From the IMG/VR virus record IMGVR_UViG_3300028393_000019, positions 124,001-188,000 of that record: a DNA stretch of 64,000 nt. One strand, written 5' to 3'. The notes beneath the pieces were generated by a model. The model did no database searches, had not been told where the DNA came from, and worked only from the letters and a program-made list of their open reading frames with translations. This stretch comes from a virus. Shown in pieces: positions 30,358 to 57,169 of the stretch. Position numbers and translations under genes: made by a program. Numbering within the stretch: position 1 is the stretch's first letter; each line of letters starts with the position of its first letter.

Positions 30358-32271
30358 ATGAGCAAAATCATCGGTATCGATTTAGGTACAACAAATAGCT
30401 GTGTGGCAATCCTGGAAAACGGAGTTGCCAAAGTAATTGAAAACAGCGAAGGTGCGAGAACAACACCATCAATCATTGCATATACCAAGGACGAGATCCT
30501 AGTAGGTGCAACAGCAAAACGACAAGCAGTCACAAACCCAAAGAATACAATCTACGCCAGCAAGCGCCTTATTGGTCGCAAGTTTGACGAGAAAGAAGTA
30601 CAAAAAGACATCGACTTGATGCCTTATTCAATTATCAAAGCTGACAACGGTGACGCTTGGATTGAAGCCAACGGCGAGAAACTTGCTCCACAGCAGGTGT
30701 CAGCTGAAGTGCTACGTAAAATGAAAAAGACAGCAGAAGACTATCTGGGTAAAGAAGTTACACAGGCAGTTATCACTGTGCCTGCTTACTTCAACGACAG
30801 CCAACGTCAAGCAACCAAAGACGCAGGACGTATCGCTGGACTAGAAGTTCTACGTATCATCAATGAGCCAACAGCGGCCGCATTGGCATATGGTGTAGAC
30901 AAGCAAGACAAGAAAGATCGTAAGATCGCTGTGTATGACTTGGGTGGTGGTACATTTGACATCTCCATTATTGAAATTGCCAACATTGACGGCGACAAGC
31001 AAATTGAAGTGTTGAGTACAAACGGTGACACATTCCTAGGTGGTGAAGACTTTGACCAAGTTCTTATGGATCATTTGGTAGCAGAGTTTAAGAAAGACAA
31101 TGGTATTGACCTAAAGCAAGACGTGCTGGCTTTACAGCGTTTGAAAGAGTCTGCTGAAAAGGCCAAGATTGAATTGTCTAGTGCCGCAAGTACAACTGTT
31201 AACTTGCCATACATCACAGCAGATGCCAGTGGTCCAAAGCACATGAATGTGACTATCAGCCGTGCCAAGTTTGAGCAAATGGTTGAGAAACTGATCGAGC
31301 GTTCAATTGAGCCATGTAAGATTGCTATGAATGATGCCAAAGTTACAGCCGTAGATATCGACGAAGTTATCCTAGTTGGCGGCCAAACACGTATGCCCAA
31401 AGTGCAAGAAGCAGTTGAGAAACTGTTTGGCAAGGCACCACGCAAAGATGTCAACCCAGACGAAGCAGTGGCCGCAGGTGCCGCAGTACAAGGCGCTGTT
31501 CTAGCAGGCGACAAGACAGACGTGCTGTTGTTGGACGTGACTCCATTGACATTGGGTATTGAAACAATGGGCGGAGTGTTTACCAAGCTGATCAGCAAAA
31601 ATACAACTATACCAACCAAACACTCACAAACATTCTCAACAGCAGAAGACAATCAACCAGCTGTGACAATCAAAGTTGCACAGGGCGAGCGTGAGTTGTT
31701 TAAGTATAATAAGATGCTAGGTGAGTTCAATCTAGAGGGTATTGACCCTGCACCACGCGGTATGCCACAGATTGAAGTCACACTAGATTTAGATGCAAAC
31801 GGTATCTTGAATGTAAGTGCCAAAAATAAAACCACTGGCAAAGAAAACAAGATAACTATCAAGTCTGATTCCGGACTAACTGAAGCTGAAATCCAACGTA
31901 TGGTTCGTGAAGCTGAAGAAAATGCCGAATCAGACAAGAAGGCAGCAGAATTGATCGGAGCACGTAATCAAGCTGAAGGTACTACACACAGTATCAAGAA
32001 AGACTATGAAACGTATAAAGATCAATTGACTGAGGAAGAAAGAACCAAATTTGACGAAGCAGTAAAAGCAGTGGAAACTGCTTGTGCTGGTGAAGACAAA
32101 GAGGCGATTGACAAATCAGTACAGACTTTCTTTGAAGCCGCTGGTCCGGTTATGACTAAAAAACAAGCCGCTGAATCAACGACAGACGAAACCCCAGCTC
32201 AAAGCCAATCAGCTCAAGAGCAAACGGTTGATGCTAGCTTCACAGAAGTTGACAAAGAAGAAAAGAAGTAA
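30358..32271 (+). CDS. dnaK: Hsp70 chaperone DnaK, full length
   Basis: 637 residues, the usual bacterial length. The ATPase domain is intact: [56 protein letters not shown]. The linker [19 protein letters not shown] and the substrate domain follow, then a short lid and tail ending EEKK. No DnaJ or GrpE is in the window, so host co-chaperones are needed. A GATAAATATT box and AAAGGAG site lie upstream. Likely roles: folding of virion proteins, or help to IscU. Confidence 0.97.
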
Positions 32272-48420: not shown

Positions 48421-48488
48421 CACAAGGTCGCGTAAAATCAGTCAAAGCTAGAGCCAAACGTGCAACTCGTAAAGCACGTAACAAGTAA
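48417..48488 (+). CDS. Arg/Lys-rich micro-protein (23 aa)
   Basis: MTQGRVKSVKARAKRATRKA plus RNK; protamine-like. Coupled to the preceding micro-gene and directly upstream of tmRNA. Translation is supported only by the ATGA overlap. Confidence 0.4.
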   Translation: MTQGRVKSVKARAKRATRKARNK

Positions 48489-48496
48489 TAGCAAAA

Positions 48497-48840
48497 GAAT
48501 TGTTGTACAAGCCTTAAAGTAAGGCATTCTGGACGCGGGTTCGACTCCCGCCAGGTCCACCATAAGCATATTAGGTCGTTGAGTTAAAAAGTCGCATGTG
48601 ATGCGCTCAGACTAAAATAGTATGCTTTTGATGGGCCTGCCATGGTTTCGACAGGGTGAGATAGGATAAAGGTCAACACGTGGGGTCACGTAAAATACAA
48701 ATAAAGTAAATGCAAAAGCAAATACATTCGAGTATTTCCAAGTTCCTGTAACATTAGCTACTGCTAATGATGCAGAATTTGCAATCGCAGCCTAAGAAAC
48801 TGCACTCGCGAGGTAGGACTTACCTTGTCATCAAAACAAC
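48497..48840 (+). ncRNA. ssrA: tmRNA, circularly permuted two-piece type
   Basis: The acceptor piece comes first: T-arm GCGGGTTCGACTCCCGC and a 3' end CAGGTCC-A-CCA ending at 48562. After a spacer of about 70 bases the coding piece starts at 48633 with GGGCCTG, which pairs with CAGGTCC, followed by the conserved CCATGGTTTCGACAGGG. The tag reading frame at 48757-48795 gives ATANDAEFAIAA and a TAA stop; the -AIAA end is a ClpXP-type degron. Piece order is that of alphaproteobacterial tmRNA. It frees stalled ribosomes and tags the products. Outer ends are approximate. Confidence 0.9.
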
Positions 48841-48846
48841 CAAAAA

Positions 48847-48868
48847 GGCACTTTCGAGTGCCTTTTTT
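48847..48868 (+). terminator. Rho-independent terminator after tmRNA
   Basis: GGCACT-TTCG-AGTGCC then six T. Confidence 0.88.
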
Positions 48869-48869
48869 A

Positions 48870-48898
48870 TTGACCAGTAAACAATTTGCATATATAAT
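48870..48898 (+). promoter_or_regulatory. Sigma70-type promoter TTGACC-17-TATAAT
   Basis: Directly after the tmRNA terminator, drives the outer-membrane protein. Confidence 0.75.
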
Positions 48899-52861: not shown

Positions 52862-53375
52862 AGTTTTGTAAGTGTTAGCAAGAGAAAGTCACGCTGTCTA
52901 GGTTTCTTCGAAGGACCGAAACAGTAGAAGGTGATGGGTTCGACACCCACTAGGTCCATTGAGGCGACTAAACTGGACAAGTATTCCAAGTAACTTATCC
53001 TGACCCTGCCGGCTCAATTACAAGGGAAAATGGTTGCGATGAGAGGGACGCAACAACTTACAAATTCAACAGACCCCCGCTTTGTCAGGTTGTGCGGTAA
53101 ACAATCTGACACTTACTAAGTAATTGTATTAGTAAAAGATTTAAGGTGTGATAGTGTTTCGCAAGAACTTTGAGGATGCCGGAAGCGTTCAAAGAGGATA
53201 GTTATAGACTATAACACTGATTGGCAGATAGAGTTGGGTATTGTTTTCAGCATTGACCCAACAGTCGATCACGCATTCCATGTTAGGCGAGACCAAAAGA
53301 GCAGATCTGAAAAGTCTGGGTCGCCACTGCTAACGCAAAACCAAAACTCTGTGAATCTTTTACTAATATCTTTAT
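52862..53375 (+). ncRNA. Structured gene-free region with tandem perfect hairpins
   Basis: 514 bases without a credible gene. From 53033 to 53325 there are seven successive perfect helices: GTTGCG/CGCAAC, TGTCAG+TTGT/ACAA+CTGACA, TTACTAA/TTAGTAA, CTTTGA/TCAAAG, GTTATAG/CTATAAC, GTTGGGT/ACCCAAC, GGCGA/TCGCC. A T-arm-like GGGTTCGACACCC lies at about 52937 without a full tRNA around it. Looks like a large folded RNA in the tRNA operon; not a family I can name. Confidence 0.6.
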
Positions 53376-53451
53376 GCGGGCGTAGCTCAGTTGGTAGAGC
53401 ATTACCTTGCCAAGGTAAATGTCGAGAGTTCGAACCTCTTCGCCCGCTCCA
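53376..53451 (+). tRNA. tRNA-Gly (GCC)
   Basis: Acceptor GCGGGCG/CGCCCGC, anticodon GCC, CCA encoded. Confidence 0.94.
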
Positions 53452-53956: not shown

Positions 53957-53985
53957 TTGACACACAGCATCAGATGTTGTATAAT
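53957..53985 (+). promoter_or_regulatory. Consensus promoter TTGACA-17-TATAAT inside tRNA cluster
   Basis: Both hexamers exact; reads into tRNA-Leu (TAG) and later tRNAs. Confidence 0.87.
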
Positions 53986-54121: not shown

Positions 54122-54311
54122 TATAAATGCTTTCTGAGTAGCTACAGTGGAACACCGAAATACCGGTCAATGTCGACCATGTACCGGGACCGGCCATGAA
54201 GAGTGGGGCTACCGTGGATTCAAGCGCCACAGAGAGCACCTATATGATCGAGTCTTGGACACGCAGACTTTAAAACGAGGTGGAAGTAGGTGGAAGCCCT
54301 ACACCTAATAT
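54122..54311 (+). ncRNA. Gene-free structured stretch between tRNAs
   Basis: 190 bases, no open frame. Helices GTAGC/GCTAC enclosing CCGGTC/GACCGG, then GTGG/CCAC, then AGGT..GTAGG/CCTAC..ACCT near 54274-54309. No known RNA recognised. Confidence 0.4.
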
Positions 54312-55399: not shown

Positions 55400-55475
55400 G
55401 CCGGTTTAGCTCATTTGGTAGAGCGCCGCTCTTGTAAGGCGGATGTGGTCAGTTCGATTCCGACAACCGGCACCA
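55400..55475 (+). tRNA. tRNA-Thr (TGT)
   Basis: Acceptor GCCGGTT/AACCGGC, anticodon stem CCGCT..GGCGG with TGT, CCA encoded. Confidence 0.93.
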
Positions 55476-55865
55476 AGTTTAAACATATTGAAATCTGTAA
55501 AAAGATCAGGTTTGGTATCCCAGTCACTATGATAGGCATAGCCCATATACTCAATACACCACAATATGTTTATTCGTTTCCCGGGACTACTGGCCGTAAC
55601 CCAAGTAGCGTAATTACAGTAACGATAACTGTACGGTGCATTGGATCTACCGCAAGGCCCGCTATATGGGCGACTTGAGAAATCACAAAGGCAGAGCACT
55701 AACTGTCTATATGGAAACATGCGGTACGGACACCAAGCCTAGTCTAGGGCATTCGGGAGAGTGTAACTAGACACTTTAATCAAACACACTTAGCCTAGCT
55801 ATAAGCTAGGTTGCAAGGACCACACACCATCTTAGAAAAAAGTGTTAAGTGTGTTTGATTAAAGT
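55476..55865 (+). ncRNA. Structured gene-free region ending in a 21-bp hairpin
   Basis: 390 bases without a credible gene. Long-range perfect helices AACATATTG/CAATATGTT (55482/55562), GCCCATATA/TATATGGGC (55541/55663), TACAGT/ACTGTA near 55616, then a perfect 21-bp inverted repeat (55772-55792 with 55846-55866) enclosing a 7-bp hairpin CCTAGCT/AGCTAGG (55794-55810). The 21-bp stem touches the first base of tRNA-Gly. A folded ncRNA or a small mobile-element-like hairpin. Confidence 0.6.
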
Positions 55866-55939
55866 GCGGGATTAGTTTAATGGTAAAACAGCAGATTTCC
55901 AATCTTCGGTCAAGAGTTCGATTCTCTTATCCCGCTCCA
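55866..55939 (+). tRNA. tRNA-Gly (TCC)
   Basis: Acceptor GCGGGAT/ATCCCGC, anticodon TCC, CCA encoded. Confidence 0.88.
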
Positions 55940-57140: not shown

Positions 57141-57169
57141 TTGACATCTATGGTAATAGGTGTTATAAT
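57141..57169 (+). promoter_or_regulatory. Consensus promoter TTGACA-17-TATAAT
   Basis: Both hexamers exact; drives the DksA-like gene and the kinase/phosphatase genes. Confidence 0.87.

Follow-up and report, generated by a model that had tools for sequence, protein, structure and literature searches.

Sequences that border structured RNAs can pair into long stems, as in pre-rRNA, where such stems are cut by RNase III within one transcript. Rickettsia palindromic elements and similar repeats are hairpin units that occur at several places in a genome, RNA genes included. GOLLD and ROOL are large phage RNAs of unknown function, which are often encoded near tRNA islands and form RNA-only cages (PMC12286853); ROOL has been described as having multiple pseudoknots (PMC12286853). 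The permuted tmRNA (RF01850, RF04321; PMC11915505) has a stem-closed insert between its two mature pieces, i.e., the intervening segment, which is missing from the mature tmRNA (PMC11915505).

The window analysed here is the whole stretch of 64,000 nucleotides (64 kb) inside a 265,680-bp virus record. It carries a permuted tmRNA and 28 tRNA genes, all on the + strand and all located between 48.4 and 57.2 kb. The region of interest, called the interval, comprises the 390 bases between tRNA-Thr(TGT) and tRNA-Gly(TCC). Like GOLLD and ROOL, it encodes a structured phage RNA near a tRNA island; like the permuted tmRNA, it has a stem-closed insert between two RNA pieces predicted to be mature, and in four phages the insert of the permuted tmRNA is itself module A, one of the three parts of the RNA of the interval. 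The features are as follows.

48470-48886, + strand: permuted tmRNA of betaproteobacterial type, a gene separate from the interval
48563-48631, + strand: intervening segment of the tmRNA, 69 nt, closed by AAGCATA/TATGCTT; the site of module A in four relatives
54122-54244, + strand: family D cassette, directly 3′ of tRNA-Leu(TAG) (profile match, E 4.4e-35)
55400-55475, + strand: tRNA-Thr(TGT), the upstream border of the interval (ARAGORN, Rfam)
55480-55572, + strand: module A, a three-way-junction cassette closed by an 11-bp stem, 55480-55490/55562-55572 (13 diverse copies)
55573-55777, + strand: core of the non-coding RNA, about 200 nt, with three pseudoknots, five hairpins and the 3′ end ACTTT (72-copy alignment)
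55742-55772, + strand: final hairpin of the core, nearly invariant; it has a GTCTAG/CTAGAC stem and an apical stem that covaries
55772-55866, + strand: module C, a 21-bp stem with a nested hairpin and a third helix (perfect inverted repeat; alignments of relatives)
55866-55939, + strand: tRNA-Gly(TCC), the downstream border of the interval

Setting and distribution of the interval

There is no convincing protein gene in the 390 bases. A preliminary description had called them gene-free, which holds for proteins but not otherwise, since the interval is an RNA gene. Rfam gave no family other than tRNA at its cut-off, and up to E 10 there were sub-threshold chance matches only; among those below the cut-off, MIR7993 and mir-3 over the hairpin were set aside, as such miRNA models suit any long hairpin.

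Loci of relatives were gathered by means of two neighbouring proteins, and the interval was present there in diverged form. Matches to it split into three independent blocks, corresponding to module A, the core and module C. Among relatives that retained at least 4 kb upstream of a neighbouring oxygenase gene, 20 of 34 had the core. With CTAGGGCN(5-20)GTRRCTAGRCACTTT as a search pattern for the core's end, matches were obtained in at least 119 contig stretches of large uncultured phages, and in every case where tRNAs were callable the core lay inside a tRNA array. The identity of the upstream tRNA varies (Thr, Leu, Asn, Gly, Trp, Ile or Val), as does that of the tRNA downstream (Gly, Met, Ala, Asn, Cys or Ser). 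Where callable, the upstream tRNA mostly ends 168-178 nt before the core motif; in the window an insertion of 91 nt of module A raises the distance to 268.

In 84,980 bacterial and archaeal genomes the same pattern gave one match (L251), with neither tRNA nor core around it, which was attributed to chance. A blastn search of three diverse copies and module A against 50,697 phage records gave no match, and for two diverse copies (L161, L228) Rfam gave none up to E 1 either. No description of the core or of the modules was found in the openly accessible, published literature that was covered. One record in the collection, L273 (CAKLQF020000003.1, "Acinetobacter phage MD-2021a"), has tRNAs surrounded by chemotaxis, dapE and cysJ genes and is bacterial in appearance. 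The phage of the window encodes a DnaK-like chaperone (30358-32268), which shares about 66% identity with copies of DnaK found in the phage collection. This gene had suggested the Moraphages (PMC12619734) as the phage group, an assignment that was dropped, as the predicted hosts of Moraphages are Bacteroidota, whereas the tmRNA here fits the betaproteobacterial model.

Other parts of the array are also of interest. At 52862-53070 there is another conserved, unannotated RNA-like stretch, with matches of strong E-values in 28 relatives, a T-arm like that of tRNA or tmRNA, GGGTTCGACACCCACTAGGTCCA, and no Rfam match up to E 1. Adjacent to it is a further conserved stretch (53071-53375), similar in style to the interval. 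It may begin with a pseudoknot, and its 18-bp stem (53126-53143/53352-53369) ends 6 nt before tRNA-Gly(GCC) at 53376. Perfect 12/12 matches to the sigma-70 consensus promoter are located at 53957-53985, upstream of tRNA-Leu(TAG), and at 57141-57169, after tRNA-Cys.

A conserved core with three pseudoknots

In the 72 aligned copies of the core, a mutual-information scan that assumed no structure recovered helices belonging to the three pseudoknots. When the 12 helices were taken together, 89.9% of cells were paired, compared with 72.5% after shuffling and at most 44.8% with slid partners, and the covariation score was 0.482, compared with 0.195 and at most 0.125, respectively; as the structure was drawn from the alignment on which it was tested, these pairing figures are somewhat favoured, and the stronger evidence is the number of pairs with changes on both sides, 32 of 45. 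Almost no variation is seen in the outer stem of the last hairpin or in the ACTTT that follows it. Core copies seem to differ by entire domains: those of L156 and L167 are close to each other until the third pseudoknot, where they diverge.

Over the three alignments of core, module A and module C, G-U outnumbers A-C by 302 to 129 on the tRNA strand, as would be expected for structures formed by RNA of that strand. The whole interval folds better than its shuffles (z -5.7), mostly because of the 21-bp hairpin, and module C alone reaches z -8.3; the core alone is not unusually stable by single-sequence folding (z -0.8), a measure that ignores pseudoknots. The preliminary description had offered a non-coding RNA as one reading of the region, and this is strongly supported by the covariation, by the three pseudoknots and by the conservation of the core while the neighbouring tRNAs change. 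Judged from these alignments, the interval encodes a previously undescribed structured RNA with plug-in hairpin modules.

The setting in a phage tRNA island is that of GOLLD and ROOL (PMC12286853), and short stretches that resemble RNase P RNA, GCAAGGCC and ACTTGAG, can be picked out by eye. The core could therefore be imagined as a very diverged member of GOLLD, ROOL, RNase P RNA, tmRNA or the group I introns, but this is highly improbable. Apart from tRNA and sub-threshold chance hits, there is no match to a family of Rfam 15, either for the copy in the window, up to E 10, or for the two diverse copies mentioned above; thus, membership in GOLLD or ROOL fails, the likeness being one of setting and not of sequence, and the proposed RNase P RNA was dropped on the same grounds. 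The core is also only about 200 nt long, and swappable 3′ modules common to tmRNA segments are undescribed for GOLLD and ROOL. With regard to tmRNA, positions 55476-55865 gave no tmRNA call, no Rfam tmRNA match and no visible tag reading frame. Unlike a permuted tmRNA, the core lacks a tRNA-like domain and is not a tmRNA, and the insert lies between separate RNAs.

The preferred reading, at a probability of roughly 0.6, makes the interval the gene of a structured phage RNA, probably stable and acting in trans, which would be co-transcribed with the tRNA array and has exchangeable domains. Its setting within that array suggests that the RNA is released by the enzymes that process tRNAs. The 3′ processing of the upstream tRNA would then provide the 5′ border of the RNA, and RNase P acting at the downstream tRNA would provide its 3′ end, which the terminal stem may protect, whilst the modules would be exchangeable accessory domains.

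Modules A and C, and cassettes elsewhere in the arrays

The preliminary description had reported two 9-bp long-range pairs, without specifying them. The interval has three long-range pairings of at least 9 bp. The longest, AAACATATT/AATATGTTT, is the 11-bp stem that closes module A; it is real and covaries, and in the 13 diverse copies of this module 93.9% of cells are paired and 50 columns are invariant. The other two would join module A to the core: GCCCATATA/TATATGGGC (55541-55549/55663-55671) and AGGTTTGGT/ACCAAGCCT (55508-55516/55732-55740). Both are unconserved and were rejected, because module A is missing from that place in most relatives and because all of the partners are engaged in conserved local pairs.

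Module C contains the perfect 21-bp inverted repeat of the preliminary description (55772-55792/55846-55866), which extends to 23 bp when one G-U is allowed and is the longest stem found across the 64-kb window. It is far above chance, and 11 of its 21 pairs show changes on both sides, as do all five pairs of the nested hairpin, CCTAGCTATAAGCTAGG; in the close relatives the repeat was looked for and was found neither missing nor scrambled. There is also a third helix, absent from the preliminary description. With the three helices taken together, 94.4% of cells are paired in 34 diverse copies (79.2% when shuffled, at most 45.3% when slid), and 18 of 29 pairs, the third helix included, have changes on both sides. 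Covariation, proposed earlier as a check, is thus seen in the stem, in the hairpin and in the helices of the core.

The outer stem of module C starts inside the ACTTT of the core and, as had been stated, ends on the 5′ base of the tRNA: its final pair takes 55866, the first base of tRNA-Gly(TCC). Among 80 relatives, the bases that follow the core (ACTTT...) pair with those just before the next tRNA, with a mean of 10.7 of 12 pairs, compared with 9.0 when arms are swapped between loci, and with compensatory changes at positions 6-12. This terminal stem abuts the tRNA exactly in 17 of the 80, and most of the others end 2-4 nt earlier. The insert that it encloses varies among phages: inspection by eye distinguishes at least 10 kinds, and at times two or three of them stand in tandem.

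Modules A, C and D occur 3′ of the core and also alone between tRNAs. Module A is 5′ of the core in the window and in L008, 3′ of the core in L010, L092 and L216, and alone between tRNAs in L136, L212 and L232; in L128, L130, L133 and L135 it lies within the permuted tmRNA, in the intervening segment. Module C follows the core and is also found between tRNA-Lys and tRNA-Met, between two tRNA-Arg and between other pairs; family D follows the core and also lies between tRNA-Ser and tRNA-Trp and between tRNA-Glu and tRNA-Leu. The position of module A 3′ of the core in L010 and L092 had raised the idea of a circular permutation of one RNA, which was abandoned because module A also exists as a separate module in the tmRNA and between tRNAs. 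Similar A/T-rich stems close a number of the intervening segments in the tmRNAs of these phages; those of L261 and L255 resemble short reading frames and not hairpin modules. Cassettes of a further type, E (L161, L163, L199 and others), have a hairpin like a T-arm, e.g., GTTTGGTTCGATTCCAAC, in which the T-loop motif occurs outside any tRNA.

Mobility, processing and meaning

The module families stand at several non-homologous places, as those of a mobile element would, and a related site exists with and without module A: L220 reads CACCA-TATTTCCCGG where L008 and the window carry the module, and this one comparison shows no clear target-site duplication. Perhaps, then, the modules are selfish palindromic elements that insert at the level of DNA beside structural RNA genes, with no benefit to the phage. 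This is quite unlikely. There are no constant terminal repeats independent of the site: the ends are ACTTT/AAAGT after the core and often CCAT/ATGG after tRNAs. In this the cassettes differ from Rickettsia palindromic elements, as their ends are not constant and their stems covary with context. The outer stem takes in bases of the upstream RNA, the loops are conserved, G-U is favoured over A-C on one strand, and a match to the Y1 transposase family occurred in 0 of 7 phage records. The earlier suggestion of an inserted palindromic element stands in part: there are exchangeable cassettes at many positions, but instead of fixed terminal repeats they have stems that differ from place to place and are maintained by compensatory changes.

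Cassette stems often begin within the RNA upstream, at its mature 3′ end (the CCA of a tRNA or the ACTTT of the core). In these phages, 609 distinct tRNA spacers of 50-420 nt were examined for stems in which at least 10 of 12 bases, CCA plus nine, pair with the end of the spacer. Such stems were present in 75 of the 609, against 5.2 expected with tails swapped, a result that is regarded as a lead because it concerns a minority of spacers, because a CCA start was required by the search and because related phages are not independent. Of 74 non-redundant cases, 58 have all three CCA bases paired. The base that precedes the CCA, which lay outside the selection, also pairs above chance (0.73, compared with 0.58). 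The 3′ arm ends between 3 nt inside the next tRNA and 15 nt before it, and in 40 of the 75 it ends 2 nt inside. In the arrays of four cultured phages there were none in 18 spacers, a number too small for such clamps to be called specific to the phages studied here.

A long perfect duplex adjoining a mature RNA end, as in RNase III processing stems, is found in the interval, where 21 bp run onto tRNA-Gly and are kept in relatives. From this position against the tRNA, an RNase III/RNase P processing signal, as first suggested, is plausible. In pre-rRNA, by contrast, it is the mature RNA that is looped out by the stems. In the interval it is the cassette, with the 5′ arm of the stem beginning in the mature 3′ end of the preceding RNA, and cleavage is putative. 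Further, the presence of module A in a tmRNA segment that is missing from the mature tmRNA suggests that this module, at least, may be discarded during processing.

This last observation, together with the excess of CCA-starting stems, the pairing of their CCA and of the base before it, and the 21-bp stem that ends on a tRNA, would suit a wider reading: that the stem-closed cassettes serve in processing, as the core perhaps also does. Each stem would pair the mature 3′ end of one RNA with the end of the spacer after it and so impose an order on the cuts of RNase III, RNase E or RNase P, after which the cassettes would be discarded like the tmRNA intervening segment. That reading is considered unlikely. 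Simple stems have no need of conserved loops, whereas module A has its invariant columns and the core its covarying pseudoknots; such a stem is absent from most spacers in the same arrays; and a gene for RNase III was found in 0 of 7 phage records, though host enzymes would suffice. An RNA ligase family was found in 1 of the 7 records searched.

More tentatively than the preferred reading of the interval as the gene of a structured phage RNA, it is proposed that a group of large phages shares a kit of exchangeable structured cassettes, the 5′ arm of each closing stem being the mature 3′ end of the RNA that precedes it (CCA, ACTTT or the acceptor of the tmRNA). The cassettes may be 3′-end clamps that control the maturation or activity of phage RNAs, with the core as one of their hosts; this would be an RNA-level system not described before.

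The tRNA islands of phages gain an undescribed and widespread structured RNA, where other large RNAs, GOLLD and ROOL, are still without a known function. Domain swapping among a non-coding RNA, tRNA spacers and a tmRNA precursor was found described for neither of these two. Short transcripts would now allow direct tests of the cutting of phage tRNA arrays and of the role of the non-tRNA RNAs in them.
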